Position numbers and translations under genes: made by a program
Notes under the pieces: generated by a model
What the model saw: only the letters and a program-made list of their open reading frames with translations
Told to the model about the DNA's origin: nothing
Databases searched by the model: none
Origin: Leptasterias polaris
Lineage: Eukaryota > Echinodermata > Asteroidea > Forcipulatida > Asteriidae
Direction of reading: 5' to 3'
Length of the DNA stretch: 64,000 bases
Assembly (NCBI GenBank): GCA_037783415.1
Contig: JAZGTN010000061.1
Span: forward strand, 682,001-746,000
Shown here: piece after piece, positions 2,168 through 63,871 of the stretch
Layout: each line of letters begins with the position of its first letter
Position numbering within the stretch: position 1 is the first letter of the stretch

Positions 2168-2309
2168 TATAAAGAACAAGAAAGTAAAATAAAAACAACA
2201 ATTTGCGCGCTGCGATAATCGCGTGCTGAAGAGCGCACGGGCGCAACGCACACAGAGGACGACTGCAATGCGACAGGGTCCGACATTAGTATTAGCAATG
2301 GTTGCTGAA

Positions 2310-2361
2310 GGAGTTTATTAGTGTGGTGCATGCACACCCACGGAGTGCATGCAGTGCACCC
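2310..2361 (-). repeat. Inverted partial terminus related to the 480-bp repeat
   Basis: TTTATTAGTGTGGTGCATGC at about 2316 is close to the reverse complement of the 480-bp repeat's left end (GTGCACCACACTAAATAA). It is followed by further GTGCA-type motifs and ends GTGCACCC directly before the GTAA at 2362. This looks like the end of a second, related element abutting head to head. Confidence 0.6.
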
Positions 2362-2365
2362 GTAA

Positions 2366-2845: not shown

Positions 2846-3435
2846 TATATATACAACATGGTGGCGCCCTTGCAGCCATTTTTGTTGGGATTTAAACATG
2901 TCTGCCGTTTGTTTACAATTGCAGGCGTGACAGAAATGAGTTGTTTGAGACTTCTTTCGTCAGTTATCGCCGTTTTTTTTTATTGTTCGTGAAAACATCA
3001 CTCCTCTGGCTGCAAACAGTAATTATAATAAAATATAGATAGCAATAACATTGTCACTTGTTAACAGAATAATTCAACGTTTTCAAAGAGTGGCTTGCTC
3101 TTTTTTTAGGCATCCTATTCCTACACACTTAACAGTCAGTATACAGTGTGTAAGACGGGACAAACTACGATCGACGGTACGACTATCGTGTATGACTATT
3201 TGATGAGACTGTGATGGTAAGTCACTTTCAAGAAAATCATGGGTCAACAGCGGCTGGTTGCTTCCTCAATTAGGAAGAAATAAACATGTTGTAAACATCA
3301 TCATCATTCATACAATACATGGCATGGTTGGTATTAACTAATAACTGAACAAGAAGAGTGGGGGAGGTGTAAACATTGCATTATTATGAATGTCAAGTTT
3401 CCGGAAAAGTCAAGTGATTCAATTAGAGTTACACT

Positions 3436-5565: not shown

Positions 5566-5696
5566 CCATCATAAGTGATCTCACATTAGTTGTGGTCTAA
5601 AGCAAAAATACTTTTAGAGTTCTCCCGATGCACAAGCTAGCGTATCAGGGCCGACACTACGCTGAACGCACAAATTTCGGCCGATATGCCAAAATA

Positions 5697-5727
<31 letters not shown>

Positions 5728-6476
5728 CAATTTCAGATAAATTTCACAAAAATTCATCAAGATAAAACCATTGCCAATGCTCCATATTGGACAGTAGGAC
5801 CTGTGAAAAGGCCCCCATCCCAGGGGAATTGTCTAAGATAATAGCCATCTGTTTCTGGATAGAGTTATAACTTGTCCCCATCAACCAGAAACAATCATAA
5901 TGGTTTGGCCTTTTTCAACATGCCCCGCCCACGCCCCGCCCACCCTTTCCCCTTTTACCCCGTTCCAGAGGTAGAATAAAATTTGAAAGGGCAGTTAAAT
6001 GTACAAAAAGTGACCTATGTGTTTTCTAAATTTTATAAAGCTCCCCATTTTAGACTAATATGAATGCATGGTTAGAAAAATTTAAGGGAAAGCAAAATGT
6101 GCCCCCCCCCCCCCCCCCCCCCGGCCAGCCCCCTTCCATTTTTACAGCTTGTTCATGCCAATTAACCCCTTCTTAATGATTAATTAAATAACTTGTAAGG
6201 TTTTTATGATCCTGTGATAAAAAAGAGACATGTTAATAACTTTTTGAGTGAGGACTTGGATATAACTTCTGACTTGTCCTTAGAATGTACACAGTGTGTC
6301 GTGCAGGTTTTTCTTCTCGCATTGCTTAGAGTACATGTAAATGCTCCAACATGTTGGACCTTGTTGTAGACGAACGCAATAACATTTCACTTTTTTTTTC
6401 CCAGATATCAAGTCAGTGACTTATTCTCAACAATTTAAGCATAATTTTTTAACCATAAAGAATAATTAAGTGCCCT
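5566..6476. other. Non-coding part of the composite element
   Basis: Upstream side of the transposase on its strand. It contains an (AT)n run at about 5692-5720, a C-rich block at about 5930-5970 and a C22-type homopolymer at about 6101-6122. No second gene is visible. Confidence 0.6.
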
Positions 6477-6480
6477 TATA

Positions 6481-6960
6481 GGGTGCACCACACTAAATAA
6501 GCCAGAATTAATGCGCCAAGCTACTTATCATAATTTGTAAACCCACAACTTATTTTTAATTATAACGTTTTGGGGGTCATGCAATTAATAGATTGTGTAA
6601 ATATAAAAATCTATCACAACCTGGGGGTTCTGTGCTTCAACTTTTGAGGAGACTTGATAAATTTAGGCGTTAAAGTTGGCCCTATTTGACCGGGGAAGTG
6701 GAGAAGTGCTTCACGAAAACTGGCAGCAAGTCGGTTTTGGAAAAAAAAAAAAAATCGTGTTTTTTTCTTCTGGGGTAGTTAGCAAAAATTCCAAACGGCT
6801 GACCTGCCAAAAATTGAAAAGAATTCTGAAGTTTAGTTGTCCGGAAATATGTCTGATTGGTTTTCAAGAGGCTGAGAGACTTACACGATTTTTTGAGTAT
6901 TTTTGAATAATTATCATTTAGCATTGGTTCCTATGGGAGATCATTTAGAGGGGTGCGCCC
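6481..6960 (+). repeat. 480-bp terminal direct repeat, right copy
   Basis: Same sequence as 2366-2845 by eye. It is preceded by TATA (6477-6480) and followed by GTAA (6961-6964). Its right end lies 200 bases before the WDR36 start codon. Confidence 0.9.
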
Positions 6961-7160
6961 GTAAGTTTTAAGTTTAGTATTCCGCCCTCAATATCTCAAA
7001 TACGATCAGTTTTTATTTAGTCAGATACCTTGTAACCTTTTGTAACCCTACATTTACTCGCTAAGACGTCAAGGTAACATACCCATACAACATGTGCGTT
7101 TGATCGGTACATCAGCCAACTTATGAACTGCAATAATTTTCTCTGCAAAAGTTGTTGAAA
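6961..7160 (+). promoter_or_regulatory. Residual 5' flank / 5' UTR of WDR36
   Basis: Only these 200 bases separate the composite element from the WDR36 ATG, so the core promoter and 5' UTR must lie here, within the element, or beyond it. No TATA box or initiator is convincing. The placement is inferred from the gene start only. Confidence 0.4.
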
Positions 7161-7304
7161 ATGCCTGAAGGGAGCCAGATATTTGTTGGCTTTCGAGCTT
7201 TAGGCTTCCACTGTAACCATGTTCCGCTAGCACTCCGTTATAACCAGAGACACAAGGATCATTATGTTGTTACGGCGGTGGGAAAGGCGTTCCATACATA
7301 CAAC
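7161..7304 (+). CDS. WDR36: WDR36 exon 1 (N-terminus)
   Basis: It encodes 48 residues including IFVGFRALGF, CNHVPLALRYN and VTAVGKAFHTYN, which match the start of the first propeller of WDR36 (human: ALGLFSNDIPHVVRF, TCVGKSFHTYD). The ATG at 7161 is the first in frame. The exon ends at AAC|GTGAGT, phase 0. It is separated from exon 2 by 4.6 kb. Confidence 0.9.
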
Positions 7305-10300
7305 GTGAGTTGAAAATAAAAAGTAACCACACGGTTACACCGATGTGGAGTCGGTCACTTCGTACCCAAGTCACTTCGTACCCAAATTGTCGTACCCAAG
7401 TCACTTCGTACCCAAGTCACTTCGTACCCAAGTCATTTCGTCAATTGTCTGACTCTGACTGATGGCCTGGCCTTCATTATTTTCTTTCATGTGGACATCG
7501 ACACCGAAACCGATTATATTTTCACGGTAATTAAAAACAACTTGCACTTGCAGGAAGATCGGAATAAAAGTTCACCTTTGTAAAAAAAGTGTCCAGTTAT
7601 TATTATTATTGCTGAAATGTTCTTCACTTTGACGCGATTTTCTCATGGGCTCCGTTTTTGACTGGTCTGATGGAGAATTGCACGCATTGAGGGCACATTT
7701 TACACAAGCGTTTCCTCCGTAAATTACTACGTTTGCTGTTTTAAAACACAGCCAAAACTTTCACACTAAATATATGTATTTCCTTTTTGTTGAGTTACAT
7801 GCAAATACTAGGGACTGCACATGAAAATTGATAACTCCTCTGACTGGTTCCAAACATAGCTTAATGGAAAGAGTGAGAGAGTCTGATTACAGTACTTTTT
7901 GAATGGGGTCAATAGGTGTTCCGGTTGTGGAGTTATGACAATTTAAGGATTTATGAATTACAGTAATTTTGTATCTATTTCCCAATGCAATCAATCGTGT
8001 TTTAAAACCTGATTTTGACTGTTTACATCTAGTTTTAATAGTAAACAAATTAATAAACAAATTCAAATTGTTATAAATCATTAACCATAAGGTGTATGAT
8101 ACCCAGATTTTGTGTACAGGTAACTGTTGAATTGTTCTTCACGATCGCACATTAACGCAATGCGTTGCGTAAATTCTCGTTGTCATGGAAACGACGATTA
8201 ACATGTTGTTTGTTTATTGGGAAATTTTGCGGAAATAATCATATTTGAAGGTAAGTATCCATATTTTAAAATTCAAAAATTGTTTGTACATGTCTTGAAA
8301 CGTATTCACACACAAAATAATCAACTCACTATTCTTTATTTTCTTTATATTACTTGTTTTATTTGTTTACATCTTTTTATAGTGTATATTACAGGAATGG
8401 AAGCAGTAAACAAAGTAGTAAACAAATTGAAACAGCTATGGATCTTGAAGTACAAGTCCGAAGACCACCAAATTGTGTGCACATGTTGCTGATAAGTTGT
8501 CCTTTGCAATAAGACAATAATAAACTATGTGGCATATACAGTCGCTGTCATGGTAACAACAGTAAACAACAATAAACAAGTTATTTGTTAATTGCGGAAA
8601 AATTGACATTTCAAATCACAGTATGTGACTGTCAATATTATGACACTGTGTAAACATGTTGTTAAACTTATTGAAACAAATACATGTATCTTATTTTGCT
8701 CTTTGGTCTATAAATAACATGTTTAATTTGTTTACCTCTCTTAATAGTATAGATTAACATGATCAGAAACAGTAAACAAAGTAGTAAACAAAATAAAATG
8801 GCTATAAATCTCAAAGTATAGGCCCGAAGACCACAGAATTTGATCTCAATGTTAGAGGTGAATTGTCCTTTCAAACCAGACATTTATGAATTATATGGCA
8901 TCAACAATTGTTGACATAGTTTAACATCTTTTAATATTGTACATTATATGATTGAAAGCTGTAAACAAAGTAGTAAACAAATTCAAATGGCTATGATTCT
9001 TAAAGTATAGGTCCGATAAACTACCAAATGACTACCACATTTTGCAATGATTTGCCAATTGTATACACTCTCAATTCTTATAATGTTGATGCTGTGTATA
9101 ATAATGGTAATGAAACAGAGTAGCAAACATTTGATTTTGTACACATATTGCCAATTGATTTTATTGTATTTATCAGCATGAAAATAAATATCATGCCAGA
9201 TTAAGAAACAAAATGGCTGGTCATTTATATTAAAATAGACAAAGACTTATCATTGTAGTCATCAACCAAGCGCAGGGAATATACCTTTGGATCATTCTCG
9301 TACTTAATATTAAACCATGAAGGGAACCCTGGCACTTGGCTTATGACAGTTCCAATGTAAGCTTGGTCCCCATCTTGGTCCCCAATACGTTGTCGCCAGG
9401 TTTCTAAAGACACGCCCATTACACATTCTGAAAAAATAATAATAAATAATTTATTAGTTTACATTAATCAAAAGCAAATGGGCATCGGTTCGGTTCCCCT
9501 TCGATAAGACCAGCAAACAAAATGCATGCGATATACATGGAATTGCTAATGGGCATCGGTTCGGTTCCCCTTCGATTAGACCAGCAAACAAAATGCATGC
9601 GATATACATGGAATTGCTACCAACAATGCCTAGACTGCCAGAGCCAATAATAAATGAAAAATTGGGCATAGGTTCCCCCCTCTCGGCGCGGGCCAGCAAA
9701 CAGTTAATGCATGATAATAAATCGAACCATGGATTTTCCATCCACAATCAGAATTTATTGCCATGATTAACTTTTTTTTTAAATATTTTTATTTAAATTT
9801 AGGCCTACTTTGGTAAATAAAAGATTCCCAAACTGATATTTACTCAAACTAATTTAATTAATAAGCCAACTTAAACACGTTTTCAGACCATTTAAACCAT
9901 TTTAATGGGCTGACAATGTCAAATATGGTCAAAATTTCAACCTCAAAATCTATCATTTTCATCTTAAAATGACAATCGCTTCTTAGCGCTGTCGAATTCT
10001 GCTACGTCTATGACGCTATTAACCTAATGCGGTATCGATCTTTCCATTTCCGGCATCGTATTTGAGCCTACCCCTACCTATGTGTCATAAAATTACGTTT
10101 TAAAAGTACTTACCGGCAAATGTGTCCACAAATCAGCCAAAATACGGTCGAATTCAACGGTTATTTTTTCAACTGGAAGCTACGATAGTGTTCTGAAAAA
10201 GGAGTCAGGTCGTCAGGGGAAGCTATCCCAGCATGCCTTGCGAAGAAGCCGATCCCGATCGGGGGTCTCAACATCGGCCGATTGCGTGGGCAAAACGATA

Positions 10301-19300: not shown

Positions 19301-22300
19301 TCTGCCATTTGGTGAGCATCTGGTGTCAATTGATGAATCCAGCAATCTCAAGATATGGGACATCAAATCAACAGGTAAAATATTAGGTTGTTTTAACGAA
19401 AATTGTGGCCGAGTGCTGTAGTGTGCATCAAAGGTAAGTTCTGTTGGCAAGGTCATCAGAGTGTGGGTTTGAATCCTGGTCATGACACTTTCTGAGCAAG
19501 ACACTTAACTATAATTGCTTTTAATAAAAGTAGCTTTTTAAACACAGTGTCTTGTTTTTTAAATGTAAGTTTCTTGTTTTAATTGTTTTCAGAGGTTTAT
19601 CTTGAGATTCAGTTTTGCAATGAAAGCTTCCAGGTTTCTGCCCTCATGCACCCGACTACTTACCTCAATAAGATCCTTCTGGGAAGCAGACAGGGTACCA
19701 TGCAGATCTGGAATGTCAAATCAAAGTAAGATGTCTCATTTCAAACAACAAATCTGTACATAAAGATCTATAGACCTATCCACTACGTTCCGCCCCTTTA
19801 CGCATTGACCAATCAAAACTGGGAATGTGTGTGATAGATCTTTATCATGCTACCCCCATCTTGGTTATATTCCATGTGTCAACTAACAGTAATAAATGTT
19901 AGAGTCTTTTCCAAACTTCAGCTTGGATTTCGACTCGACTTGGGCTCCCACATGGGCTCTGTTGATATAAAGGTGCAATGGTGCAATGGTAGTTGTGACT
20001 TGCTGGATCGGTGTATTATAATAAACTCATTTAAAATGATATTACTTTTATTTTTTCAAGTTATCAATTTTATGCAATAAGTATGAATTCTGTTATAGAA
20101 TCAACTGGACTTGCAATTTAATTGTAACAACAGTTCCATGTCCTATCCCGAACCCATCATTAGGCCGACTGATCTTGTGGTAGCAAAAAGTTGTTGACTT
20201 GTTTCAGGGTCAATTCACTTCATGATTCAATGGAAAACAATCATAAATACCTTTTATGCAATATTTAATTGGTGACTTTAGGATGGTTAATGGTAGTTGA
20301 CAAACTTTGAATCTTTGCCTAACTTTGTCAAAACCATTAACTCCAAACATCCTCATTAAAGAGAATAGAAGCTTGAGTCGGAGCTCATTAAATACACTTG
20401 AAATGCCTGGAAGTAACATTAGGGTGTCTTACAATGTGGTGATCCTTCAAATCACCAAAACATAATAATTAATGATTATTTGTCTACGCCTGAATTACAG
20501 CACAAAAATTCTGACAAACAAATTGAGGACTTTCAGTTTGCCACTGGGCATTTCAAAAGAATGCCGTTGTATTATAGACTGGTTTTTGGAACTTCTATTA
20601 AGACCATTTAAACAGGATTACTCGGTGCTTTAGTGGAGTTGAAGATATACTTGAACTTTGATCGGTGGAAACACCTTTTCACGAGTTTGGTTGTGCTGCT
20701 GTACAGTTGTTAGGACCAAATGGTTACCAAGTTTTGTGTAAGGCATTGTGTCAAGTTGCTTGATTTTACAAAGTGCGCAGTTTTACAAAGTGCGCAGTTT
20801 TACAAAGTGCGCAGTTTTGTAGCTGCATTATAATGAATTTGTTATTTTGATTTACAATAGTCTTTATTGAGGAATCATATTCTGGCTCATTGGATTAGAT
20901 TGAAGCTTCTTTACATGAATACTAACTTGTCTTCATTTAATATCTTGGTTCTTTCCTCAGTAAACTTGTGCACACTTTCAAGGGCTGGGGATCTCCAATT
21001 ACAGTAATAGAGCAGGTAATGAGTTATTATTGATCCTCAGATTCATTAAGTTTCTACTGATTAACTGTTGTGGCCCTTTACCTCAGCGGTTGTTGGCGCA
21101 CCACTGATTACTTTGCAACAATATTTCCATGCCTCTCTGTCCTCCACTGCCCTCCGTTTGTAACAATCTTTCTGCATGCCTCTCTGTTCTCCACTGCCCT
21201 CTGTTTGTAACAATCTTTCTCCATGCCTCTCTGTCCTCCACTGCCCTCTGTTTGTAACAATCTTTCTCCATGCCTCTCTGTCCTCTACTGCCCTCTGTTT
21301 GTAACAATCTTTCTCCATGCCTCTCTGTCCTCTACTGCCCTCTGTTTGTAACAATCTTTCTCCATGCCTCTCTGTCCTCCACTGCCCTCTGTTTGTAACA
21401 ATCTTTCTCCATGCCTCTCTGTCCTCTACTGCCCTCTGTTTGTAACAATCTTTCTCCATGCCTCTCTGTCCTCCACTGCCCTCTGTTTGTAACAATCTTT
21501 CTCCATGCCTCTCTGTCATCCACTGCCCTCTGTTTGTAACAATCTTTCTGCATGCCTTTCTGTCCTCCACTGTCCTCTGTTTGTAACAATCTTTCTCCAT
21601 GCCTCTCTGTCCTCCACTGCCCTCTGTTTGTAACAATCTTTCTGCATGCCTTTCTGTCCTCCACTGCCCGCTGTTTGTAACAATCTTTCTCCATGCCTCT
21701 CTGTCCGCCACTGCCCTCTGTTTGTAACAATCTTTCTCCATGCCTCTCTGTCCTCACTGCCCTCTGTTTGTAACAATCTTTCTGCATGCCTCTCTGTCAT
21801 CCACTGCCCTCTGTTTGTAACAATCTTTCTCCATGCCTCTCTGTCCTCCACTGCCCTCTGTTTGTAACAATCTTTCTCCATGCCTCTCTGTCCTCCACTG
21901 CCCTCTGTTTGTAACAATCTTTCTCCATGCTTCTCTGTCCTCACTGCCCTCTGTAACAATCTTTCTCCATGCCTCTCTGTTCTCCAATGCCCTCTGTTTG
22001 TAACAATCTTTCTCCATTCCTCTCTGTCCATCACTACCCTCTTTGAGTTGGTAATCTCTAGTCTTGTCTGCTCTTTGATGTCTGTCTGTAACCTTCCTCA
22101 AATACAAACCAAATGTTGATCATTTAGCCTGATGTATAACTGACATTTTAGAGCTACAGAGCTTGGACTTCTTTCAGGCAGGATTTGTACAAAACTCAAC
22201 ATAAGAAAATTGAAATCTTACATTTTCTTGAGGTTGAACCGTAAGATTTTAAAGAATGTTTGATACAAAGAAAAAGGGCATATCTCAAATCTTGTTCAGC

Positions 22301-31300: not shown

Positions 31301-34300
31301 TTACATTGAGGCAACTTGTGCCAGCTTGAAAAAAATCTGAATTGAATTATATTGTTGCGTTAAGCTGTTTATATCTTCATACTGCAGACCTTCAGCCAGG
31401 ATGCTCGATGGCTGGTGACATCATCAATGGACTCAACCATTCGAACGTGGGACCTCCCATCCAGCAGGTAAGAAACAACATTCTCAAGGATGACAGTGCC
31501 ACCCACCTCATTCAGCAGATTTTATGTGTCAATGAGTATTTGAATCCTTAGTCATAAATACACCAGACAGTGTAAAGCAATGAGTAGTTGTACAAAATTT
31601 TACCTTTTGGACTTTCGGGCTTGCATTGCATGTAGTGATTTGTCAATACATTATAAAGGGTGAAGCTCAATGGGATTGGTCTATTACTTTTAGTATACCT
31701 GGCTCCATGCCAAGTATACAGTGCTTGAATATGATGTCAAACTTGACTGAGTGTTGTGGTTGGTTTGGAAGTTATAAATACCACTCATCTTTTAATATTT
31801 TCGTTTTTGTGATTATTTTGTTGATATTAGTCTTGACTGTTTTCATTGTGCATATATCCACTGTCATGATTATTTTCTTGATATTATTGATTTGTTTTCA
31901 TTGTCCATTTTTCAATTATTGTGACTATTTTGTTAATATTAGTGGACTTTTTTCATTGTCCACATTTTCCATTATGATTATTTTGTTGATATTAGTGGAC
32001 TGTTTTCATTGTTCATACTTCCCATTGTTATGATTATTTGCTGATATCAGTGGACTGTTTTCATTGTTCATACTTCCCATTGTTATGATTATTTGCTGAT
32101 ATCAGTGGACTGTTTTCATTGTCCATATTTTGCATTAAGGTTATTTTGTTGATATCAGTGGACTGTTACTATTTTCCATATTTTCTATTGTTATGATTTG
32201 TTTGTTTATTGATGAACTGTTTTCAGTGTCCATACTTTCCATTGTTATGATTATTTGTTGATTTTGATGAACTGTTTTCATTGTCCATGTTTTCCATTAT
32301 TGTGAATATTTCATTCAGATCCCAATCCCAATAGATTTCATTGTCCATCTTTTCCATTGTTGTGGTTATTTTGTTGATTTTAGTGGACTGTTTGATTTTT
32401 CAAGTGTTCAATTGTTACAAATATTCTGTTGATACTGGTGGACTATTTTCATTGTCATATTATCCATTATTGTGAATATTTCATTTAGATTGGTGGATAG
32501 CTTTCTACTAGAAGATGCTGCAACTAGTATAGCACTCTCTCCAACAGGTGACTTCTTAGCTACATCACACGTTGACGACCTTGGCATATATCTATGGTAA
32601 GGGACATAACTGATTTTGTTTCAGAGGGAAACTCAGAACTTGCTGTGTCTCTGCAGGCAATTTCTATCCAAGTTAAAGGAATTGGTTGATCTTTAAAAAA
32701 AGTATATTGAAAACTTTTGAACTGGAATCATTCTTTTTATATGTACCAATTGTCTTGAGAAATATTACTGTCTTAAATGAGTATTGTTATTTGCAAGAAA
32801 ACAAATTGCATGCTTTCGAACTTACACAATATGCTAAACATAAATCAGTTATAATGTGGTTTTAACCCTTACACTGAAGTGTGTTAAGCATTGTATACTC
32901 AGTTCTTACCCGAGTTCTGTGAAAAAATCCACAGGCAAATCGTTCGAGTGGGATTCGAACCCACAGACTTTGCATTGCTAGAGCAGATGTCTTACCACTA
33001 GACCACCGAGCTAGCCCGATAGCTAGAGGCAGTTCGAATCCTTAGCAGCGGGTACCGCAAGGATTTAATAGATGTTGAATTTTGCATCGGGGATAAAGAA
33101 TATAATGTGGTTTTTACCCTTACACCGATGTGTGTTAAGCACTGTATACTCATTACTTACCCGAGTTATGTGAAAAAATCCACAGGGAAATCACTCGGGT
33201 GGGATTCGAACCCTTGACCTTTGCATAAATTAGTTGTCGTGTGTTATGAAACCGCCTTTTTTGCTAAACACTTATTGACGTAATCACATTTTCCTCTCAC
33301 AATCCAAAGGTCAAACAAGACACTGTATGCCCATGTACCGATATGTCCCCTGCCAGATGACTATGAGCCAAGCATTGTGTATCTCCCAGGAACTAGTCTT
33401 GAACCAGAGGGTAAGTCTTTGCAATAAATGATTCAGAAAAACTCATTCTCCTTCAAAAGGAAATATTTTCTTGTTGGGTTGTGTATCTCAGAGTGAAGTA
33501 GGTTATTTAAGAGATTGGCAGAGCGCGGTGCCAATCATTTTACTTGTAGAAAGTTTGGATGGGACATAAAGCTGTGAACATAAACATTTGCTGCTGTGTT
33601 TCAGGCATTGTTGGCTGCAGAATATGCCTCATCATCTTTCAAACCCGTACAAGGCTTTTTATAAAATGAGTTATATGCATCAAACATAGCTGTGTATACC
33701 CGTCATCAAATAATGCGTATTTTGACACATCAAAGATAAATTGCTGTACATGTATAAATGTATTTACATTATAAAGTAATGTTGCCTGGATAATTTGACA
33801 AAAAAGAGATAAATAAAGTAAGGTTGTGTATCGCCGTTGTCACAGACATTTTGTTTTTGGCCATCCCTTGTGGTCACTTGCAGGTCTTCAGGGCGCATAG
33901 ATGACACTAATGACCTCATTGCCAGTCAATATTGCCAGTCAAAATGGAGTTCATGTTTCTAAATATAGATCTTCATCTCTTTTTATAGAAATTCATGAGG
34001 TCGATTCTGCAGAGCTTGAATCTGATGAACTCGTGTTAGAGTTCACATCACCACAACAGATCTCAGCTGAGCTGATCACTCTCTCACTCCTGCCCCATTC
34101 AAGATGGAAGAGTCTTACCAACCTTGAACTTATCAAGGTCAGAGTTCAAACTTGTTTTTTATCACAGAATCATTGTATGTTTATGATAGTGGGTTTCCCT
34201 GTACTGTATTCCTATTTTAGTCTGATTTCTGATTTTTTGCCTTTGGGAAAAAACAGAAACATTTTGATTTAAAAAGCTGGAAAAGTCTATTAAGGCCTAC

Positions 34301-45358: not shown

Positions 45359-46331
45359 TTTGAAAGAATTTAAACAACGACAAGATGAAACGGACATGTA
45401 AACAGAAGCTGCCGTAAGACGGACACACAGATCGAGGAAACACAACACATACAAGCTTCAATTCTATGTCACCTATGTTATCTTTCTGGAGTAAAGATGT
45501 TCTTATATTCATGAAATTCTTTTGTGTGTCCACAGAATGTTTCCAAATCTTTTGTTCTCATGTCCAGTGCACGTTGTATGTAATGCATCTTCACTAGACG
45601 ATATTATGGCTGCGTAAAAAACAAAATAGGCCTATTGTTACCCTTTTGTTTTGAAAATGGTACCACTGCATAGTGAGGTAGCGTACATGTAGACAAATGA
45701 CAATAGGCAACTTTCACTATTAAATTCACCCCAATGCTGGATATTTGACGAACAGTAATAAAAAGGTACACCACTTTGAATATGCTCATAACGCAACATT
45801 CTTAACAATGGGCCTTTATTCAAAATAATTAAACGTGAGAATAACTCAGAATTTGACAGGGAAGCGCCGCTGAATGCTACTTGGCAACATCTCCCTAAAG
45901 ACAAAACAAACACCAAACGTCAAATGAATTTATGGTATTTAACGGTTTGTTGATTTTTTTTCCCCCATTATTACCGCTGCATAATTTCCGATCATAATAT
46001 TCAGGGAAATTTTCCTCTTGAACGATATGCCATTGTTATAACAATGGCGCTGCAAGTACCGTACAATATTGATGACTCTGTGGTAGTAATAAAAGCGTTA
46101 CCAAGGCTGCACCACCTGTAACCTTGGCATCGATTGGTAACCACTCCCAGCATCCATCAGCAATTTTTTTAATGAATACAATACAAGAGTACGGGTCGGT
46201 TGGTTGGCATGGAAACAAAAAACGCAGACAAATTCTAGTAGCACAACAGTCTACCACTACTTATTTACTGTACACACTGATGAGAGCACAGTTGACTGGT
46301 AGACAATATTATTATTGGTGTTAGTTTAAGA

Positions 46332-46662
46332 ATGGATCGCGCTGCTCGCAAGAAGCTGCTGGAATCCAAGAAAGCACAGCTTGCTGAAGTGATTGATGCA
46401 GATGCGATTGCTAAGGAATTAGTCTCAAAAGATGTTATAAACGAGGGCATCAGAGACCTGATCCTAAAGCTGAAGACCAACAAGGAGAAGACGAACAAAC
46501 TAGTGGACGCTCTTAAGATCACGAAGGGGAAGAAGTTTGAGCTGTTCTGCAATGTGCTGAGTGAACAGGGCCACGAGAAACTCGCCCAAGAACTCATGCA
46601 GAAAGATAATGACAAAGATATTGACGGAAGACGGAAGAACAGGACTCCATCTGCTGGTGATG
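46332..46662 (+). CDS. Exon 1: N-terminal CARD
   Basis: Starting at the ATG at 46332, it encodes MDRAARKKLLESKKAQLAEV, then AIAKELVSKDVINEGIRDLI, TNKEKTNKLVDALKI, and KKFELFCNVLSEQGHEKLAQ: the six-helix spacing of a CARD with the usual 'L...L..KG...F..F...L' end. It finishes GAT G|GTAAGT, phase 1. Intron 1 is 4.86 kb. Confidence 0.85.
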
Positions 46663-49600
46663 GTAAGTACACCAATATTTACATCGTATTCAAAATGACT
46701 ACTGGAGATTCAGTGTTGTAGCCAAGGGGGCTCCCGGGGGCACGTGCTTCTAGTGCCCCCAACGAGCAAAGCCAGACACAATGTATTGCCCTAAGAAACA
46801 TTTAAAAAGCACATTGCTCTTCCCCCCTTGAAAATGTGCGCCCCACTTAAAAACAAATCATAGCAATACCGCTGTGGATATTTTTGTGGATATAATTCAT
46901 TCCACTCCCCGCGGCAACCAGCTGAAAATCTAAGCGGAACTGAAATAAGGCGAGGCCAGCGGTCGGTGAGAGGGTGAGGACGTATACCCCGCAAGGTTCA
47001 TGTTTTTATTTCTTGGAATTTTTACGGTGAATGATAGAAACTTTTAGCAGACTTTATTTTAGTCATATTGAAAAAGCCGCATTGGTGTAAATTCTATACT
47101 ACTGTGGTAGGCACTTCAGTTGTCATTGTGGTGGGTTACTGCAATATTTGTTGTGTTAAGTTCATTTTGTGCGTTTACACAAGCTTCAAGAAAATTGCCC
47201 TTTTAATAAGATGATAATTCCATGTGGGGAGAATAACTTACTCAAAGAAAAAGTCTTGCTGTTCAAATTTGTTTTAATGCAAAAAGTCACGTTAAATTTC
47301 TGGTGTCATTGGTATCTCATGTGACGTAATGCGTGACGTAGTTCCAACACACACCAGATTGGTTCCAATACTCACAATAAGTAGTTTATCGTAAATTCAT
47401 TGAAATCTTATGTTTGGGATCCAAGTGATGGCACTACGCTTCCATGGTGTACAAAGTTTTTATGCCTGCAGGAGGTCTATAGGCTCTGTGGCTCTTTTGT
47501 AAACAAGTGATTTCACTAAACTGCACGCACAACAATAACCTTAAATTAATCATTTATTTTTTATTTTTTACATGAAGGAGTAGAGAGTCCATTTGTTTTA
47601 TTTCTCACACAAGTAGACTGGATAGAAAGTAGTATTGGGAAAATTGTTAACTCTGTCAACAATGTCCCACGTTGTCAAATAACCACTTGAAAAAGGCGTT
47701 TTTGGGCATACAGCCGGACCCATATTCAGACCCCTGCCAAATACCCATCAAAGATGTGATTGGTCTATCCTCATATCAGGTCACACACATACATATAGTT
47801 TATAACCAAATGTAATACAAAAGCAATCGGACATTTCTCTTAGGCACTAGAGGGTCTCAAATATGACGAAAAATCATTCCGCGGGCTAAAATATCAGTTT
47901 TTAAAGACCTATGACTTGATATAAAAATGTCTTATGCTACTTTTGACAGTATAGATTCTAGTTGACTGAGTACCAGGTACCCTGTATATTAATTTGCAGT
48001 TACATATCTTATCTCAATTTGTAGATATAGGCCTCTTAAAATGCCCAAAACTGAAAAAGTAAATTTAAAGGGGCGGGGCTTAAATTTTTAGGGGGTCATA
48101 TCTCAGAAATGTTTAAAAGGGGTAGGTTTCTAAAATTTGGTGTGTGTTCATGGCACCCATAGGGGAATGTTTGAATTTTTTTAAAGCAAAATCTGAGACG
48201 GAGCCTGCCCAACTTTTCAGAATTTTAGGTGATTTGGCACGGAATGACCCTTAAAGCTATTTGATATTATGAATTATTTCATTTGGAATAAGGACAAGTT
48301 TATGGTGGATTTCACACACAGTGTCGAACTTGAGCGCAATAAGATTAAAGGTCAGTTGAAAGAGGTCATAATGTACGTTTTGATCATTTATTTTAATGTA
48401 ATCTGCATATGATTGATTAATATTTCTATCATTGTTTTTTTTTATAAACACAAGCTTGTGAAATGAAATGAAATCCAGAGTTCGTAAAAGATACCAACAA
48501 CGATCATATTAATGCAGTAATTGAATAAGTCAGACTAATGTATGCCAGGCAATTCATGTCTCACGATGGTGTAATGACGTTTTTATTCACACAGTAGTGG
48601 TTTGACATGGTGTTTTTACACCCAACCGTTAACGCTATCAACTCTCAGATGATGACGTATAGGCCGTATTAGTTGCTTTATTCTTGCATTACTAAACGGC
48701 TAAAATAATACAAGAATTTCGTCATTAGAAATTGATCATAAGAACTGATTATAACTTTCTCGCACATATAGCCTCACTCTAGACGATATTGTCATTTATT
48801 GTTTAGAACTTCACTAATCGTGAATTAATCATGATCAATCACTCATGTCATGACCAATGTGCAAGGTCAGGATAACATTACGGATTATGATGTTAATAAA
48901 GCTATGATGTTAATTGCATTGATGTGGGCGTAGCTAGATGTTCGTTGACACCGATTGTTTTAGTAGTACATCACGATAAATCACTGTAGCGTGCAATCTG
49001 CAAACTCACTTTGTATAAAGTGCATACCAGTACCAATCCATCTGAAAGCTCACTGATTCTAAAGTTCATACCAGTACCAACCCTCCAGAGAAATATTTCC
49101 ATCTGAAAGCTCACTGATTCTAAAGTTCATACCAGTACCAATCCTCCAGAGAAATATTTCCATCTGAAAGCTCACTGATTCTAAAGTTCATACCAGTACC
49201 AATCCTCCAGAGAAATATTTCCATCTGAAAGCTCACTGATTCTAAAGTTCATACCAGTACCAATCCTCCAGAGAAATATTTCCATCTGAAAGCTCACTGA
49301 TTTTTAAGTTCAAACCAGTACCAATCCTCCAGAGAAATATTTCCATCTGAAAGCTCACTGATTCTAAAGTTCATACCAGTACCAATCCTCCAGAGAAATA
49401 TTTCCATCTGAAAGCTCACTGATTCTTAACCAGCAGGTCTACCAACAATAGGCCTACTTGTATTGGTTCTAGAAACAGCGATATTCATATCTCAACAAAT
49501 TAATCAGTCAAATAGTTCAACAATTTCAAAAACCTTTAAGATGGTTCTCTTTGTTCCTGCAGCGCTTTGCCTATGGTAGATACGTGCGCTATAAAGACTC

Positions 49601-52600
49601 ATGAACCTCTAGTATTAATTGTGTTTATCTGAATGGAATTATCGTTGTTTTTCCAGGATAGGTCGAGAATATTTCTGGGGAAAAAACCTACGTAAATTTC
49701 ATGGTGCTTGCTTAATGCATTCTGCACTTAAGGTCACATTAATTGTGGGGTAATTACTGACGAGTAACAGGCGACTCGGGGGCCGGGGTCGGGGTCGGGG
49801 TCGGTTCGGTTATTCCCGGAATATGGCATGATACATAATCGGCAGTTATCAAACAAAATAAATTAACGAATTTCGAAACAGTACAAAATATTGTTGTCTT
49901 AAATACTGCATATTGTCCCGTTTTTTCTTTTTTTTCTTTTCCAGTTCACATTAGGCAGGTCAGTGTTATTTCAGGAATCGTTAAAAACACAGATTAAGAG
50001 TGTGACTGACGAGTCGTACTCGTGAAGTTATTTACATAAAAGTAATATTGCGAGTTGCGACCTACTTATTTTGTTCCTTTGCACATTACTTGAAAATATT
50101 TACACGAAGGAGGTGAACCCGTAGATGGTGAAACTCTCCAATGTCAATGATAATCAAACATACAGCGGCTGCCGTTGTTGTTGACAATTTTACTTTCTTA
50201 GTTTCCGTCTAGGCCTACTGTTCAAATCCCCGTTTTCATTTCGGAATTGAAACAAAAGACACAAAAAGTAATTGTTCATCCTGCTCTGAATAAATTTTAA
50301 GGATGATTTTTTCCGGTTTATTTTACTTTGAGTAGTTCGTATGGTAAGACCCTTATGTTTGTGACTACTCAAGTTGGCCTGCCAAGTAAAACGTCTTTTG
50401 CTTGCCATCTTTTCTTTACTTTTCACTACAATTTTAGATTTCTGTGTATTATATAATATAAATGGTTATTCTTTTTAATGACAGGTCTGGGAGGGCACAT
50501 CTTTTTTAATGACAGTTTCTTGACTCTTGCCTTTGCTCGTATATTGTAATTCCAAAGAATTAGAATAAAATAAATACATAAAATTAAATCATGGATCTGT
50601 ATCAAAATACCCAAACAGCTTGATTATGGCCCGTTCGAAACCATGGCTTTGGCTTGTATGGGCTTCGGCTGAGGCTCTGTCAACCTCGTTGAAACTCCGT
50701 AAGGAAAGCCAACATGTAAGCCGGAGCCCAAGCCCAAACCGTGGTTTGGAAAAGGCCCTATAGGCCTACTTCTCTCAATTTCTTTCATTCGTCTGCGGTT
50801 CTTTAAAACAAGCATTCAAACATTTGAACACCATAATGGTTTCTCATTGACGAATCTTTGATGACATTATTGAGGGAGAAAGAAAGAAACTAGGTAGCGT
50901 GTGGCTAAGGCTGTGTCTGTTGCTAACGGCGTTGCTGTGGACGTTCTATACTTCAGTCTATGATGACGCAACGAAAATAAAATTCTCTCTTTAGATTTTT
51001 TTCTACTAACGAACTTTAATAGGGCGTGTAAGTTTTAAGAACGATTAGGCAAAACATACTTTCACTCAAAGAACGAAATTGTAACATGCAAACATTGTTT
51101 GTACGTGACTGATTACAAACTATTGCTGCGTTTCCATTTTTTCAGTTTTCTTTGTCGTTCAGTATCTCAAATGAAAGTATATTATCCATTACTACAGGAA
51201 AGAAGCTATCTTATACTTAATCAAATTCTGTACCATCAATTTGGTTTAGGAAAAAGACTAAAAACAAACAAACGACAAACAACCAAAACTAACAAACAAA
51301 CTTACCAAAAAACGAACAAACAAACAAACAAACAAACATTGTTACAAACTGTGGTTATCTATTTTTGTTCTGCATTTATGGCTTCCCATATAGTTTTCCA
51401 ACCTTGGTTGGCAAAAACACGGGCTGTGACGTTGTAATAGAAAAGTTTATTATTTAACTGTTGAATCTATTTTGTTTATGTTGTGTATCATTGAACGCCT
51501 TGAACCTTCTTTTTCTCCACAGACGCAAAATTAAACTCCTCCGTTTCAGGCAGCTACGTCGACGTCTTCAAAACCTGTCGTGATTGTTTCATCAGTGAAG
51601 TATCGGCCGACCCAGAGAGTTTAGTTCGAAAGCTGGAGGCGGGAAAAGGAGTCAATCTGACGAGCAAAACCAAGCGGCATCTGGAGATTGCAGCTGAAGA
51701 CATGAAGGCTGAGATATTATTCAACGCCATCTTGCCTCAGGTCAATGAATATGGGCCGTTTTTCGACCTTGTGCAGCTCTTACGAGATCCATTTCCACAT
51801 CTCTCAAACAGTTTATGGGAACAGTTGAAGAACATCGTAGTACCCCCAAAGAGTACGTTCAAATTGACCTCGTCTATTTTTGATATCATTGTGTTAAAAA
51901 TGATAATTTGCTGATACCATGTGATAGAATTAAATACCCCTATTTCTTTATGGGGATATTGTAAGCATTGTATATATTCTACTTGAATGTTTTATTCCCT
52001 TTTTAAAGCTTTTAGAAAAGTTGGCTAACAAACACTTCATGCATAATCGGGAAGAGTTTTATTTATATTTATATTTATCTTTATTAATTTTTCCGGCAAT
52101 TCTAAAAAGGACACATACAGTCACAATAGCAAAAACATTTGTAAAAAACCTACAAAAACAATGACCACACAAAGGAAGACGTGAGTGAACCAGCTGGAGC
52201 CTGATGGATTGCCGAAAAGAAACAAAGTTTCTGTCTAGAGGCTTTCCTCTCCAACTGGTTCTAAGAAGAACAAAAATAATTCATTGTTGAGATAAGTCTC
52301 TTTTGATTGAACATTTCTTGGGAAGAAGGATTAAAATTACTAAATATACTCATCGAACTCTGGATATTGTCAGTTTTCCTGAATTTTAGTTTTACTATAT
52401 ATCTTAGGTGGCTCCAACAGTAAGCGCAAGAAACACAGCGCTGGAAGTTTTCACTCATCTGTCCCTTCATCACCAGGGAGCCTAAGGGGCTCTCCAAGTT
52501 ACTCCCGAAATGGGGCCTCAAATGACGTCATGAAGTCACTGACAAACCTTCAGTCAGACCTAACGGAGTCACAGAGTGACAGTCTGAAGCAATCATTACA

Positions 52601-55600
52601 ACTGGAGAAGTGCATACAGACCACAGCTGAAGCCAACACGGCCATCAAGAAGCTCAAGGAGCAACTGGCACTCGCCGAGGAGGAGCGGAATGCGGCCACC
52701 TCTCAAGCAGACATGGCGAGGCAGCATGCCACCGAAGCACGACAACAGCTCGAAGTAGGCCTCCTTGAGTCGGAAGGAGAGAGGAAGAAGCTGGATGATC
52801 AGCATCGCAAGTGGGAGGGCCAGATGAGGAGGCGCATGGCAATGCTGGAGCAGAAGGAGACATATCTTGCATCCAAGGAAGTTGAGCTAAAGCGACGAGA
52901 GGAGGAGCAGAGGCAACGCTCCCAGCTTAACAGACGCCAACAGGACTCCATTGAAATGAAAGGACGGGACATGGCCTACCGTGGAGATCGCCAGGAACGT
53001 CGAAGCGCCGAGCATTACGTCAGAGAGGATCGGATAAAAGAGCGGGAAAGCAATATCGAGAACAAGGAGTTGCAGCTGGCTGAAAGAGAAGATGAGGTCA
53101 CAAAGAAAGAGGGCGCCCTGAAGAAGAAGGAGATCGAACTTCGCCGTAAAGAGATAGAAACGGTACGTCTTGAAGAACAGATAAAGACGATGCAAGGAGC
53201 ACAACGAAAGGTGGCAACTCAACTTAAACAGAGAGAGCAAACCGTTATCCGGGCAGAAGAAGATGTCAAGATCATCGGTGAGAGTCTTGAGCAGCGTGAG
53301 AAGAAGCTCAAGGAGAAAGAAGCTACACTCAAACAGAAGGATATGCAGATAAAAGAGAAATCAGAGGAGTTGGAAGAACATCAAAACCTAGTTGATAAGA
53401 AGGAAAGAGAAGTCCAAGAAATGGCACAGGAGCAGCGGGAGTGGGAAAACGCCTTGGAAACCAAGGCTCAGGAGATGGGCGATACTTCAAATGATTACGA
53501 GAAGAGAGAAGAAATACTGCGTCAGAGAGAAGATGATCTCCTCTTCAAGAAGAAAGAGCTGGACAGTCTGCAGGATGTCTTGGACTGTCGCCTACAGGCT
53601 CAGGAGAGAATGGAGCGTGCCCTGAGGATGATTGAGGTTGAGCAAATACGCCGTGATAAGGAGCTCCTCAACCGGGAGGCTGAGCACTTCCAGTTGCGTC
53701 TCCCAAACCGAAATAAGATCACTGAGATGGAAGATCGCTTGGAGGAGCTGGAGAAGAAAGACGGGGAGTTACAGAAACGCGAAGAGCTCCTCAGTTGGAT
53801 TGAAGTCGAGCAGCAGCGTCGAGAGTTAGAGCTGCAGAAGCAAGAGTTGACGACAGAGAAGGCCAGACGGAAGAAACAAGAACTTGGGGAGGATCCAGAT
53901 GGGGCTGATTTTGACATGGACGATGACCAGAGGACCGAAATTGACTCCGTTCCACTCAGCATGAACCAGGATATAGAACAGGACCAAGAAGCACACGGCT
54001 TTGAGATCGCTCTGAAGGGTGCCCGATATCCTAGGCAATCCAGAAAGGATTTCTTTGATGTCAAAGCAGCTGGACTGCAGACTGTCGGGGATTTCAAGAA
54101 CGTGTTGGAGGTAGAGGAAGGGATACCAGCCAGTTGGCAAAAGCTGTACATGAACGGTCAGCTCTTGGAAGACAACATGCCAATACCCAGCGTGGACAAT
54201 GGAGGTCCTAAACCCAAATTTGAAATGAGATTGGCAACACCTGCTATGAGTCAACGGAACCTTTTCAAACTGAAGGTGAGTTTACGTTTATTTTTAATGC
54301 ATTCCTGTCTTCAAATTTGTATAGGAAAAATCTCAACTTATACCCGGGCTCGATTTCACAAAGAGCAAAGATTGATCTTAAGTGCAAATCAATTATAGCT
54401 AAGATTGATCTTAGGTGCTAATTAATCTTAATCGTAAATACTGACAACTCGATGAATCTTGGTGCTTTGTGAAATCGACCGCAGGTCCTGACATTCCAAC
54501 TGACTCTTCAATCCCCACATTTTTAAGGGCATTTTGTTTTAATGAATATTGCATTCTTTTCGCAAAGATTTGTTTTTCCGTTAGTCAAAACAAAAGTTTG
54601 TTTTCTTAGCTCAGGGTAAATGAAAAGTACACACTTGAAAAAACACAAGTTGCATTGCGACTTCCTTTAATTAGTATTGTTAAATAAATACAAAAATCGC
54701 ACCCCCTCTTAAGGTGGTCCCTCTGCTGCCTCTTCCCAGGTTGTATCGTAAACATGGGCAAAATCCCTGGCTACACGGCAGTTACAGGTCAAATGGCTTC
54801 TGACTGGCAACCCCAAATTAAGAAATTAAAATCAAATAGGGAGACCGCCAACATTAAGGCTAAATAGCTCAGTTGGTAGATCGCCTACACGTTTATCCGG
54901 AGGTAGCAGGCTCAAATCCCGCTCAACTCAATTTGTCTTTGTTCAACTCAGAATTATTGTCATTAAACCCTTTTTAAATACCTGTTTATGTCTCGACAGG
55001 TGAAAAGCTGCCATGGTCCAACCCATACCATTGACTTCTCCTCAGAAGACACTGTAGCGTTGGCCAAGTGCCGAATTTACAAGTACACTGGCATACCCCC
55101 TCATCAGCAGCAGCTGTCCTACAAAGAAGTACTCCTCGAGAACCATGCCTCTCTCCAACTCTACTCGATCAGGAAGAATGCGACACTTGACCTCAGGTTG
55201 AGGTTTCCGGTGGTTGCTAAGCTGTCTGATACCGAGGAACTTGTGATAACCGCAGATGAAATCAACACCACTGCTAACATCAAAGCCACCATCTTCGAGA
55301 AGACCAAAATACCACTGGATCACATCAAGGTAAATGAGCTTTCCTTCAATGAAGAACAAACAACAAACAATAATAACAAAAACTTAAATATAACGTCACA
55401 AACTGTCTGAAATCATTTGGACAGAGTCCAATTCTATATGTTTAAAAAATTTATTGATATGACCAACATCCTGCGAGAATATTAGCTCTTACTTTTTACT
55501 ACGAAAAATCCTACCTTTGCAGCAGACGATTAATTATTTCTACTTATTTTCTGTTGCTGTTGATTTAGATCTCTTACAAAAACAAACACCTGGAAGATTA

Positions 55601-56006
55601 CCGCACTTTGTCCCATTACAACATCGATGAGGGCGCCATTCTGCAAGTCACGTGCCCGGTGGCGGTCCAGCTTCTCCCCGGCGGTACCGACATCAACGTG
55701 GACGTGGAACCAGGGATGACCGTGCACCAGCTGAAGCCACTCCTTTCCCGCAAGAAGAACCTCCCAGTCGACAAGATGTACCTTGTCTGCGGTGACCAAG
55801 TTCTTGCAGACGATCAAGATGTTGTTGATCTACTGCGGGCTAACAAGGAGATATCCATGCACGTTGGTAACGTCCTCGTGATGTCATCTTCTGGTCAGCG
55901 CATACAGGAAGTCGGTGAAGATAAACCAGCTCACTCACATCTAGACCAGTCTCTTGATCTCAGTGTGTCCTCATTGAATCTCAAGCAACCTCAGTCCAGC
56001 CGTTAG
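46332..56006 (+). CDS. CARD-CARD-coiled-coil-tetra-ubiquitin-like protein, 5 exons
   Basis: Exons 46332-46662, 51523-51852, 52408-54275, 55000-55329 and 55569-56006 sum to 3297 bases, 1098 codons plus stop, with all phases compatible. Domains in order: a CARD (about 1-95), a second CARD-like helical domain (about 115-215), a Ser-rich linker (222-255), a very long charged coiled coil (about 262-705), an acidic linker, then four beta-grasp ubiquitin-like units (about 749-832, 838-912, 913-983, 984-1052) and a 45-residue tail. There is no C-terminal Gly-Gly, so it should not be conjugated like ubiquitin. CARDs assemble death-fold filaments, and CARD plus coiled coil recalls CARD9/CARMA-type scaffolds of NF-kappaB signalling. 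Here ubiquitin-like folds replace the MAGUK part. A signalling role is inferred from domains only. I know no named family with this order. Confidence 0.85.
46663..51522. other. CARD gene intron 1: no gene, tandem array and simple repeats
   Basis: It contains the 61-bp array (49022-49431), a GGGGTC repeat at about 49785-49805 and an AAAC-rich stretch at about 51265-51340. Short frames have no support. Confidence 0.65.
49022..49431 (+). repeat. 61-bp tandem array, about 6.7 copies
   Basis: The unit is CTGAAAGCTCACTGATTCTA, AAGTTCATACCAGTACCAAT, CCTCCAGAGAAATATTTCCA, T. Copies are nearly uniform; one has TTTTTAAGTTCAAACC changes. Intron 1 of the CARD gene. Confidence 0.95.
51523..51852 (+). CDS. 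Exon 2: second CARD-like domain
   Basis: The exon corresponds almost exactly to one helical domain: VDVFKTCRDCFISEVSADPE, SLVRKLEAGKGVNLTSKTKR, AEDMKAEILFNAILPQVN, PFFDLVQLLRDPFPHLSNSL. The helix pattern and the 'F..L...L' end are CARD/death-fold-like, but sequence identity to known CARDs looks low. It is entered in phase 1 and ends AAA GA|GTACGT (phase 1). Confidence 0.75.
52408..54275 (+). CDS. Exon 3: linker, coiled coil and first ubiquitin-like fold
   Basis: 1868 bases. A Ser/Pro/Gly-rich linker (KRKKHSAGSFHSSVPSSPGS) leads to heptad-rich sequence with KE/RE repeats (for example KEVELKRREEEQRQR, KEGALKKKEIELRRKEIE) to about residue 705. Then comes an acidic stretch and UBL1 (HGFEIALKGARYPRQ...FKNVLEVEEGIPASWQKLYM). 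An ATG at 52530 lies inside this exon, but the upstream exons join in phase, so it is not the start. Confidence 0.88.
54345..54483. mobile_element. Family I MITE in CARD gene intron 3
   Basis: GGGCTCGATTTCACAAAGAG and GGTGCTTTGTGAAATCGACC are inverted ends. Two internal AAGATTGATCTTA palindromes occur. It begins 70 bases after exon 3. Confidence 0.82.
54857..54975 (+). mobile_element. tRNA-derived SINE in CARD gene intron 3
   Basis: TAGCTCAGTTGGTAGATCGC and GGCTCAAATCCCGCTCAAC form A- and B-box-like halves, followed by TTTGTCTTTGTTCAACTCAG. It is the same family as 38345-38505. It ends about 25 bases before the exon 4 acceptor. Confidence 0.78.
55000..55329 (+). CDS. Exon 4: UBL2 and start of UBL3
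   Basis: UBL2 includes HTIDFSSEDTVALAKCRIYK, TGIPPHQQQLSYKEVLLENH and a final strand TLDLRLRF. The 'Y..TGIPP.QQ.L.Y....L.....L..Y.I' pattern is ubiquitin-like. UBL3 begins PVVAKLSDTEELVITAD. It is flanked by TCTCGACAG and AAG|GTAAAT, phase 0. Confidence 0.88.
55569..56006 (+). CDS. Exon 5: end of UBL3, UBL4 and C-terminal tail
   Basis: UBL3 is completed by ISYKNKHLEDYRTLSHYNID. UBL4 has VAVQLLPGGTDINVDVEPGM, TVHQLKPLLSRKKNLPVDKM and YLVCGDQVLADDQDV. The tail ends QPQSSR, TAG. A decayed copy of the 3' part lies at 59253-59371. Confidence 0.9.
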   Translation: MSYKNKHLEDYRTLSHYNIDEGAILQVTCPVAVQLLPGGTDINVDVEPGMTVHQLKPLLSRKKNLPVDKMYLVCGDQVLADDQDVVDLLRANKEISMHVGNVLVMSSSGQRIQEVGEDKPAHSHLDQSLDLSVSSLNLKQPQSSR

Positions 56007-56119
56007 GGTTTCTTATCCTATTAAAAGAAACCTTAAGACCTAACCTTACCCTACCCTCTTCGTCCCCAGTGGGGCATACATGTCTAGCTTTGTACTATTG
56101 TCATAAAAGGCTCGGCTTT

Positions 56120-56164
56120 GCAGTAAACGTGACTGCGGTAAACGTGACTGCAATAAACGTGACT
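56120..56164 (+). repeat. 15-bp triplicate carrying a poly(A) signal
   Basis: GCAGTAAACGTGACT, GCGGTAAACGTGACT, GCAATAAACGTGACT. Only the third copy, by one substitution, contains AATAAA (56152-56157). Confidence 0.9.
56152..56157 (+). terminator. Candidate poly(A) signal of the CARD-UBL gene
   Basis: AATAAA lies 146 bases after the stop codon, a normal distance for a 3' UTR. Usage is inferred. Confidence 0.5.
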
Positions 56165-59252: not shown

Positions 59253-59371
59253 TGCACGTGGGTAACGTCCTCGTCATGTCCCCTTCTGGCAAGGAAGCAA
59301 GTGAAGATCAGATGATCCAGACCAGTCTGTTGGTCTTAGCATGTCCTCACTGAATCGTAAGCAACCTCAGT
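59253..59371 (+). pseudogene. Decayed copy of the CARD-UBL gene's last exon
   Basis: TGCACGTGGGTAACGTCCTC, GAAGATCAGATGATCCAGAC, CCAGTCTGTTGGTCTTAGC, GTAAGCAACCTCAGT align with the end of exon 5 (55857-55997), including the part coding VGNVLVMS and the tail. Gaps and a frameshift destroy the frame. No other exon of a second copy was found nearby, so this is a relic of a tandem paralogue or a partial duplication. Confidence 0.8.
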
Positions 59372-63107: not shown

Positions 63108-63229
63108 ATGAAGTTTACTGCGATAGAGCCATTCAGATTCAAATTCTCTGAGAAGACAAAAGGGAATCCAGCAACTTCTGCAAATCTTAATTGATAAAAC
63201 CTTAGATCACAGCTGCAATACCTAGCACA

Positions 63230-63871
63230 ATGAGGCAGCAAAGAGAAGACTCTGACTCCTACCGCCTGGTCGTCTTGGGCTCTACTGGTGTGGGCAAGTC
63301 AGCCCTTGTCTCCATGTTCCTTAAGGGTAACATCGACATGACCTACAAGCCAACGGTTGATGACATTCACGTCGGCTACGCGTTTCAGGGACGCAAGAAG
63401 TGTAAACTGGAAATCCTGGACACGTCGGGCAGTGACGATTTCCCTGCTATACGCAGACTGTATATCTCCACTAGTCACGTATTCCTCTTGGTACATTCCC
63501 TCAAAGACCCCAAATCCTCCGAAGAGGCTCTTGGTATCATTGAACAGATTAGAGACGCACGCACGGAACAAGATGTGCCAATACTTGTTGTCGGTACCAA
63601 ATCGGACCAGAAACGCCCGGGTTGCGTAAGCAGTGCCGAGGCTGAGCTCAGACTTATTGATTATATGGACGTCGTTAGATACGTGGAATGCAACGCCAAT
63701 AGTGCAGACAGTGTGAACAGGCTCTTTAAACAGGTTGCCAATGTGGCGTTGAACCCCCGTGACCGGGCGACTTCTTTGCCGGTAGAAACGGACTCACAAC
63801 CCCCGAAACGATCCATGTCATTATTAAGGAGACTAAAGAGCATTCGCCGAAACAAAAAACTGTTGACTTGA
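63230..63871 (+). CDS. Ras-like small GTPase, Ras-dva/RASD-related, intronless
   Basis: 213 codons in one exon. G1 is GSTGVGKS (residues 17-24), G2 Thr is T42 in KPTVDD, G3 is DTSG (64-67), G4 is TKSD (123-126). G5 is the unusual CNAN (154-157) where SAK is normal. The Ras Gln61 position is Ser68, and ILDTSGS with FPAIRRLYI resembles Ras-dva and RASD (Dexras/Rhes) proteins, which also have DTSG followed by N or S. Such proteins are Ras-superfamily switches at membranes. The C-terminus is basic (RLKSIRRNKKLLT) and has no CAAX box, so membrane binding, if any, would be electrostatic as in Rit-type GTPases. The stop codon is inside a tandem repeat. Confidence 0.88.
   Translation: MRQQREDSDSYRLVVLGSTGVGKSALVSMFLKGNIDMTYKPTVDDIHVGYAFQGRKKCKLEILDTSGSDDFPAIRRLYISTSHVFLLVHSLKDPKSSEEALGIIEQIRDARTEQDVPILVVGTKSDQKRPGCVSSAEAELRLIDYMDVVRYVECNANSADSVNRLFKQVANVALNPRDRATSLPVETDSQPPKRSMSLLRRLKSIRRNKKLLT

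Follow-up and report, generated by a model that had tools for sequence, protein, structure and literature searches.

Proteins that join a CARD to a coiled coil are described as ancient in animals (excerpt of PMC5978004), and in CARD9 multimerisation through the coiled coil favours the nucleation of BCL10 (excerpt of PMC9342958), which gives a precedent for the clustering of CARDs driven by a coil. CARD signalling is often paired with ubiquitin chains that are recruited and removable, and tandem ubiquitin-like domains (UBLs) can also work unconjugated in a CARD pathway, as described for OASL (excerpt of PMC4446440). Here we describe a gene on the forward (+) strand of a 64,000-nucleotide stretch of DNA from the sea star Leptasterias polaris (assembly GCA_037783415.1, contig JAZGTN010000061.1, positions 682,001 to 746,000; hereafter the window, in which all coordinates are counted from its first letter), whose product carries in a single chain a CARD, a second conserved domain, a long coiled coil and four UBLs. 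We tentatively propose, giving it slightly less than an even chance, that the product of this single gene is a multidomain, oligomeric CARD scaffold, and that its UBL arm would recruit a dedicated partner. A first-pass annotation of the same letters had read it as an undescribed echinoderm signalling scaffold with two CARDs, in which built-in ubiquitin-like chains replace recruited polyubiquitin, and the analysis below modifies that reading in several respects.

Results

One gene, conserved end to end in sea stars

Translation of the five exons joined in phase gives 1098 codons and a stop, as in the first-pass annotation, with a GT donor and an AG acceptor at all four introns (4860, 555, 724 and 239 base pairs, bp) and with relatives that align end to end. 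Full-length proteins of the same plan are present in Asterias rubens (1092 amino acids, 89% identical end to end to the window protein), Patiria miniata (1102 amino acids, 65%) and Acanthaster planci (1100 amino acids, 64%), and because these three proteins exist exons 1 and 2 can be taken as part of the gene. Asterias and Patiria belong to different sea-star superorders, and a single gene is conserved in both. Taken by itself, the 89% identity to A. rubens suggests a forcipulatid source for the window.

When residues 1-222 were used as a query, three matches were recovered among 2349 candidates (E up to 1), all of them from sea stars: LOC117297546 of A. rubens, P. miniata and A. planci, with 87%, 59% and 56% identity over this region, in keeping with the earlier description of the protein as an echinoderm one. 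The coil query likewise gave three matches, among 729 candidates, and the UBL-region query five among 3160, two of which are multi-ubiquitin proteins (P0004 and P0005) whose listed domains do not include a CARD. The orthologue search in other echinoderms and hemichordates that had been suggested as a check thus yielded three sea-star relatives; the same plan was not found outside sea stars with the CARD-, UBL- or coil-region queries, in a search limited to proteins that have 5-residue words in common with the query and are 0.55-1.75 times as long, and by which absence from urchins and hemichordates is not proven.

The database names of the relatives ('trichohyalin-like' and similar) are uninformative, a literature search for LOC117297546 found no paper containing the name, and the domain order is named in no title or abstract start among the matches listed, so that, within these limits, the protein does appear to be undescribed: for the combination of CARD, coil and four UBLs we found no name or study in the literature searched. 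TRADD-N domains have been placed in the sea-star proteins XP_022106408.1 (region 58-150) and XP_033636006.1 (region 300-388) (excerpt of PMC8195603); these are not tied to this gene, and their differing positions suggest that they are other proteins.

The N-terminal CARD

Residues 8-90 (46353-46601) form a CARD, and this assignment is secure. Pfam matches it in all four species (the window and the three relatives), with an E-value of 6.2e-10 for the window's exon alone and of 8.4e-9 in the whole protein, where the PF00619 score is 35.8 bits against a cutoff of 23.9; the three relatives score 33.6, 33.2 and 26.2 bits, all above the cutoff. Alignment with hhalign to a four-sequence profile (CED-3, caspase-9 and two designed CARDs) gave a probability of 97.8%, and the domain is 61% identical between the window and P. 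miniata. In a PDB profile search CED-3 came first (E 7.1e-6), followed by designed CARDs (E 1.7e-4, a design on the Apaf-1 template 1cy5, and 0.0048), by unrelated RNA polymerase chains (E 0.016 to 0.29) and by RAIDD and MDA5 chains (E 1.1). Chains of the CARD9 family and BCL10 were absent from the 21 matches up to E 10, as were natural caspase-9 and Apaf-1. A CARD of the CARD9/BCL10 type is thus unsupported by this search, which is a weak test of it, since other vertebrate CARDs were missed too.

The coiled coil

The largest part of the protein is a highly charged coiled coil of about 445 residues (256-700; 52512-53846), close to the roughly 440 residues first estimated. Its hydrophobic heptad (3.5/7-residue) periodicity over residues 256-700 was reached by 0/2000 shuffles; by parts, it was reached by 90/2000 shuffles for residues 256-395, by 26/2000 for 396-520 and by 0/2000 for 521-700, which makes the first third the weakest, against much higher counts elsewhere in the protein (1160/2000 for the CARD exon, 820/2000 for exon 2 and 1265/2000 for the UBL region). 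Conservation along the coil is uneven, with 87% of columns invariant in the four species at residues 256-300 and 88% at 599-648, against 33% at 521-598.

Four tandem UBLs with an altered surface

Behind the coil lie four units, each of which passes the cutoff of PF00240 (25.4 bits) when scored alone: UBL1 (residues 751-836; 53997-54254) with 33.1 bits (E 4.9e-8, covering profile positions 11-54 of 72 only), UBL2 (residues 838-843 at 54258-54275 and 844-912 at 55000-55206) with 52.5 bits (E 4.3e-14 for the whole unit), UBL3 (residues 911-953 at 55201-55329 and 954-984 at 55569-55661) with 46.7 bits (E 2.7e-12 for the whole unit) and UBL4 (residues 982-1057; 55653-55880) with 28.3 bits (E 1.5e-6). 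In P. miniata and A. planci the first and the last unit, UBL1 and UBL4, likewise pass this cutoff alone. With whole proteins as input, Pfam marks three UBL stretches in A. rubens and four in each of the other three species. In the alignments UBL2 directly abuts UBL3, and UBL3 abuts UBL4, with no linker. None of the 16 unit sequences, aligned to ubiquitin over the four species, has Gly-Gly at positions 75-76, so the earlier claim of four tandem UBLs lacking a Gly-Gly end stands. Of the hidden Markov model profiles proposed as a check, the ubiquitin profile matches all four units and the CARD profile only residues 8-90, not exon 2.

The equivalent of Lys27, a residue that is buried in ubiquitin, is retained in 16/16 unit sequences. 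In UBL1-3 none of the 12 unit sequences keeps the equivalent of Leu8, Ile44 or Val70, and only one keeps that of His68. Across the four species position 44 reads Y/Y/Y/L in UBL1, S/S/S/A in UBL2, S/S/S/S in UBL3 and V/V/V/V in UBL4, while position 68 is Arg/Arg/Lys/Arg in UBL1, Asp in 4/4 for UBL2, Gln/Gln/His/Leu in UBL3 and His in 4/4 for UBL4; position 70 is Arg in UBL2 (4/4) and Leu in UBL4 (4/4), where it stands beside an insertion. Of Phe4 there remains only a Tyr in UBL1. UBL4 alone retains a version of the Ile44 face, with Val44, His68 and Leu70 in 4/4 species and Leu8 in 2/4. UBL2 is the most conserved folded domain of the protein, with 79% invariant columns, and because of this its altered face would be under constraint; the changed face of UBL2 is probably a binding site.

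Domain 2

Exon 2 holds one conserved domain (domain 2, residues 121-216; 51552-51839), which shows 71% identity to its P. miniata counterpart, compared with 61% for the CARD. The first-pass annotation had taken it for a second CARD occupying a whole exon, and this did not hold up. Pfam finds a CARD in exon 2 in 0/4 species and no family at all in the window's exon, the exon of one species giving only a match to a domain of unknown function (DUF) at E 0.036; the PDB profile search gave a single chance match (E 1.6), and comparison with the protein's own CARD gave none. In hhalign, the match to the four-sequence CARD profile had an E-value of 0.086, with 17/200 column shuffles scoring as high and the reversed alignment higher, and once the sea-star CARDs were added to the profile an equal or higher score came from 142/200 shuffles, and again a higher one from the reversed alignment. 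By eye the hydrophobic spacing of the exon resembles that of IAP-type CARDs, a likeness for which no support was found. A second CARD in exon 2 is thus unsupported by all four approaches; the profiles were small and a very diverged CARD could escape them, although the same small profile did find the N-terminal CARD.

Exon structure and surrounding sequence

Exon 1 (46332-46662) carries the start codon, the CARD and a linker (residues 1-110 and the first base of codon 111), is splice-consistent and in phase, and aligns in 3/3 sea-star relatives; an in-frame stop lies shortly 5' of its ATG, at 46293-46295. Intron 1 (46663-51522; 4860 bp) contains a minisatellite (49037-49426) with a 61-bp unit in 6.4 copies at 97%. 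Exon 2 (51523-51852) encodes residues 112-220 and parts of codons 111 and 221, and exon 3 (52408-54275) a Ser-rich linker, the coiled coil, an acidic linker, UBL1 and the start of UBL2. Exon 4 (55000-55329) supplies the remainder of UBL2 and the first half of UBL3, and exon 5 (55569-56006) the remainder of UBL3, UBL4, the C-terminal tail and the stop. The tail (residues 1063-1098, 36 residues; 55896-56003) bears an LDLSVS..LN motif that is conserved in the alignment with the relatives. A candidate polyadenylation signal, AATAAA, lies at 56152-56157, and ATTAAA also occurs at 56020. About 3.2 kilobases past the gene's stop there is a decayed second copy of the 3' part of exon 5, the relic of a duplicate, in two pieces at 59253-59289 and 59315-59371 (+), with 89% and 84% DNA identity, different reading frames and stops.

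Elsewhere in the window, a WDR36/Utp21 gene lies upstream on the same strand (13785-40909, +), its exons recognised in seven open frames, and a Ras-like GTPase domain (E 1.2e-30) lies in an open frame at 63206-63868 (+). On the other strand, a 267-codon open frame (171-971, -) encodes a PNMA domain (E 1.9e-28) and a 710-codon open frame (3439-5568, -) a Mutator-like transposase domain (E 1.5e-41). The latter is flanked by identical 300-bp stretches in the same orientation (2365-2664 and 6480-6779, 4115 bp apart), and no inverted repeat of at least 60 bp was found within 2000-7500. The window also contains a tRNA-Ala(AGC) gene (32939-33013, -), found by both ARAGORN and Rfam, and a 47-bp tandem array of 20 copies (21112-22042) that is open in several frames.

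Discussion

We propose that the coiled coil would gather several molecules and so bring their CARDs close together, and that the clustered CARDs could nucleate a polymer of CARDs or interact with another protein that has a CARD. The packed UBL array would then act as a fixed, non-conjugable arm, which could recruit a dedicated partner through surfaces unlike those of ubiquitin, above all that of UBL2, and two near-invariant stretches of the coil, 256-300 and 599-648, probably serve as additional sites of binding or autoinhibition. The term signalling scaffold, as used in the first-pass annotation, is plausible from this domain anatomy, the function itself being an extrapolation from it; only the CARD would point to a part in innate immunity or cell death. 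Several points weigh against the proposal: CARDs occur also in non-polymerising proteins, the heptad pattern of the coil is modest in its first third (256-395), the numbering of UBL1 and UBL4 against ubiquitin depends on alignments with insertions, and the face of UBL4 is still partly ubiquitin-like.

The idea that the UBLs replace polyubiquitin deserves to be considered first among the alternatives, since it was the original interpretation, and in our view it is unlikely. Such a mimic would act on CARDs in cis or in trans and stabilise a CARD oligomer without conjugation, its model cases being K63-linked chains and OASL's UBLs on the CARDs of RIG-I. The UBLs of OASL are able to stand in for K63-linked polyubiquitin and interact with RIG-I CARDs (excerpt of PMC4446440), and the CARD of NOD1 contacts ubiquitin on its Ile44 face in solution and on a surface at its Phe4 side in a crystal (excerpt of PMC4134136). 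In the sea-star protein CARD and UBLs share one chain and UBL4 keeps Val44, His68 and Leu70, yet in UBL1-3 Leu8, Ile44 and Val70 are replaced throughout (12/12) and His68 nearly so (11/12), and Phe4 persists only as the Tyr of UBL1. Because the Ile44 face is lost in UBL1-3, a generic built-in polyubiquitin is argued against, and the original interpretation is weakened, keeping in its favour the face of UBL4 and the precedent of OASL; a clustering scaffold with its own UBL partner would explain the data better.

We give a similarly low chance to a coiled-coil protein with a structural or cytoskeletal role, whose CARD would only mediate self-association and whose UBLs would tether the chain to the machinery of the proteasome or of chaperones. 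Docking on subunits of either is common among UBLs, the highly charged coil is the largest part of the chain and the database names point the same way, but the almost invariant segments at 256-300 and 599-648 go beyond what a passive rod would need. Less likely again would be a self-contained switch, where the coil gathers the chains and the four-UBL arm folds back to clamp the CARD, or an oligomer of CARD and domain 2, the surfaces having co-evolved away from the ubiquitin code; if this were true, CARD assembly in sea stars would need no ubiquitin ligase and would be irreversible by deubiquitinases. More doubtful than this switch is a negative regulator, whose CARD would cap the polymers of other CARD proteins while its UBLs act as competitors of ubiquitin or attract a deubiquitinase: a CARD with a non-conjugable UBL array would be compatible with a decoy, for which, however, a long conserved coil is needless. 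We reject a fusion of two genes by the prediction as barely credible despite the 4.86-kb intron 1, given that three full-length sea-star proteins (themselves predictions, two of them only 64-65% identical) have the same domain order end to end and that the CARD is present in 4/4 species.

The clustering scaffold with a dedicated UBL partner, if correct, may be a component of echinoderm innate immunity that is specific to sea stars. With its CARD, its oligomerising coil and its four permanent UBLs in one chain, the protein would also amount to a natural test of a hard-wired ubiquitin step, and the near-invariant coil segments and the diverged face of UBL2 are targets for finding partners.

Comparison with known systems

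The protein resembles CARD9, CARD10, CARD11 and CARD14 in that a long coiled coil comes after an N-terminal CARD and in that this coil probably clusters the CARDs. It differs from them in the extra domain between CARD and coil and in its C-terminus, which consists of four UBLs, and its CARD profile matched no chain of the CARD9 family or BCL10 up to E 10, other vertebrate CARDs being missed too. The comparison with CARD9/CARMA made in the first-pass annotation thus holds for the plan, CARD then coil; by analogy we would regard the protein as working like the CARD-coiled coil family, an analogy that assigns no family membership. The clearest solved relative of the CARD is the caspase prodomain of CED-3 (E 7.1e-6), from which the protein differs in having no protease domain, and natural caspase-9 and Apaf-1 chains were not matched directly.

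TBK1 and IKK, which act in innate signalling, offer another likeness in their UBL next to a coiled coil. A TBK1_ULD identity was rejected, the score (16.9 bits for UBL2) being far below the cutoff of 31, and no kinase domain was matched in the sea-star protein. The array also resembles polyubiquitin in its head-to-tail, putatively beta-grasp units, UBL2-3 scoring about 60-70 bits per di-ubiquitin in alignments with linear ubiquitin chains; unlike polyubiquitin, it has no Gly-Gly ends, UBL2, UBL3 and UBL4 abut, and the Ile44 face is lost in UBL1-3. Conjugated ubiquitin-like modifiers differ in the same way, since here there is no C-terminal Gly-Gly and the chain continues into the 36-residue tail. 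OASL, finally, has two C-terminal UBLs and an OAS-like domain and no CARD (excerpt of PMC4446440), whereas the sea-star protein unites four UBLs, a coil and a CARD in one chain.

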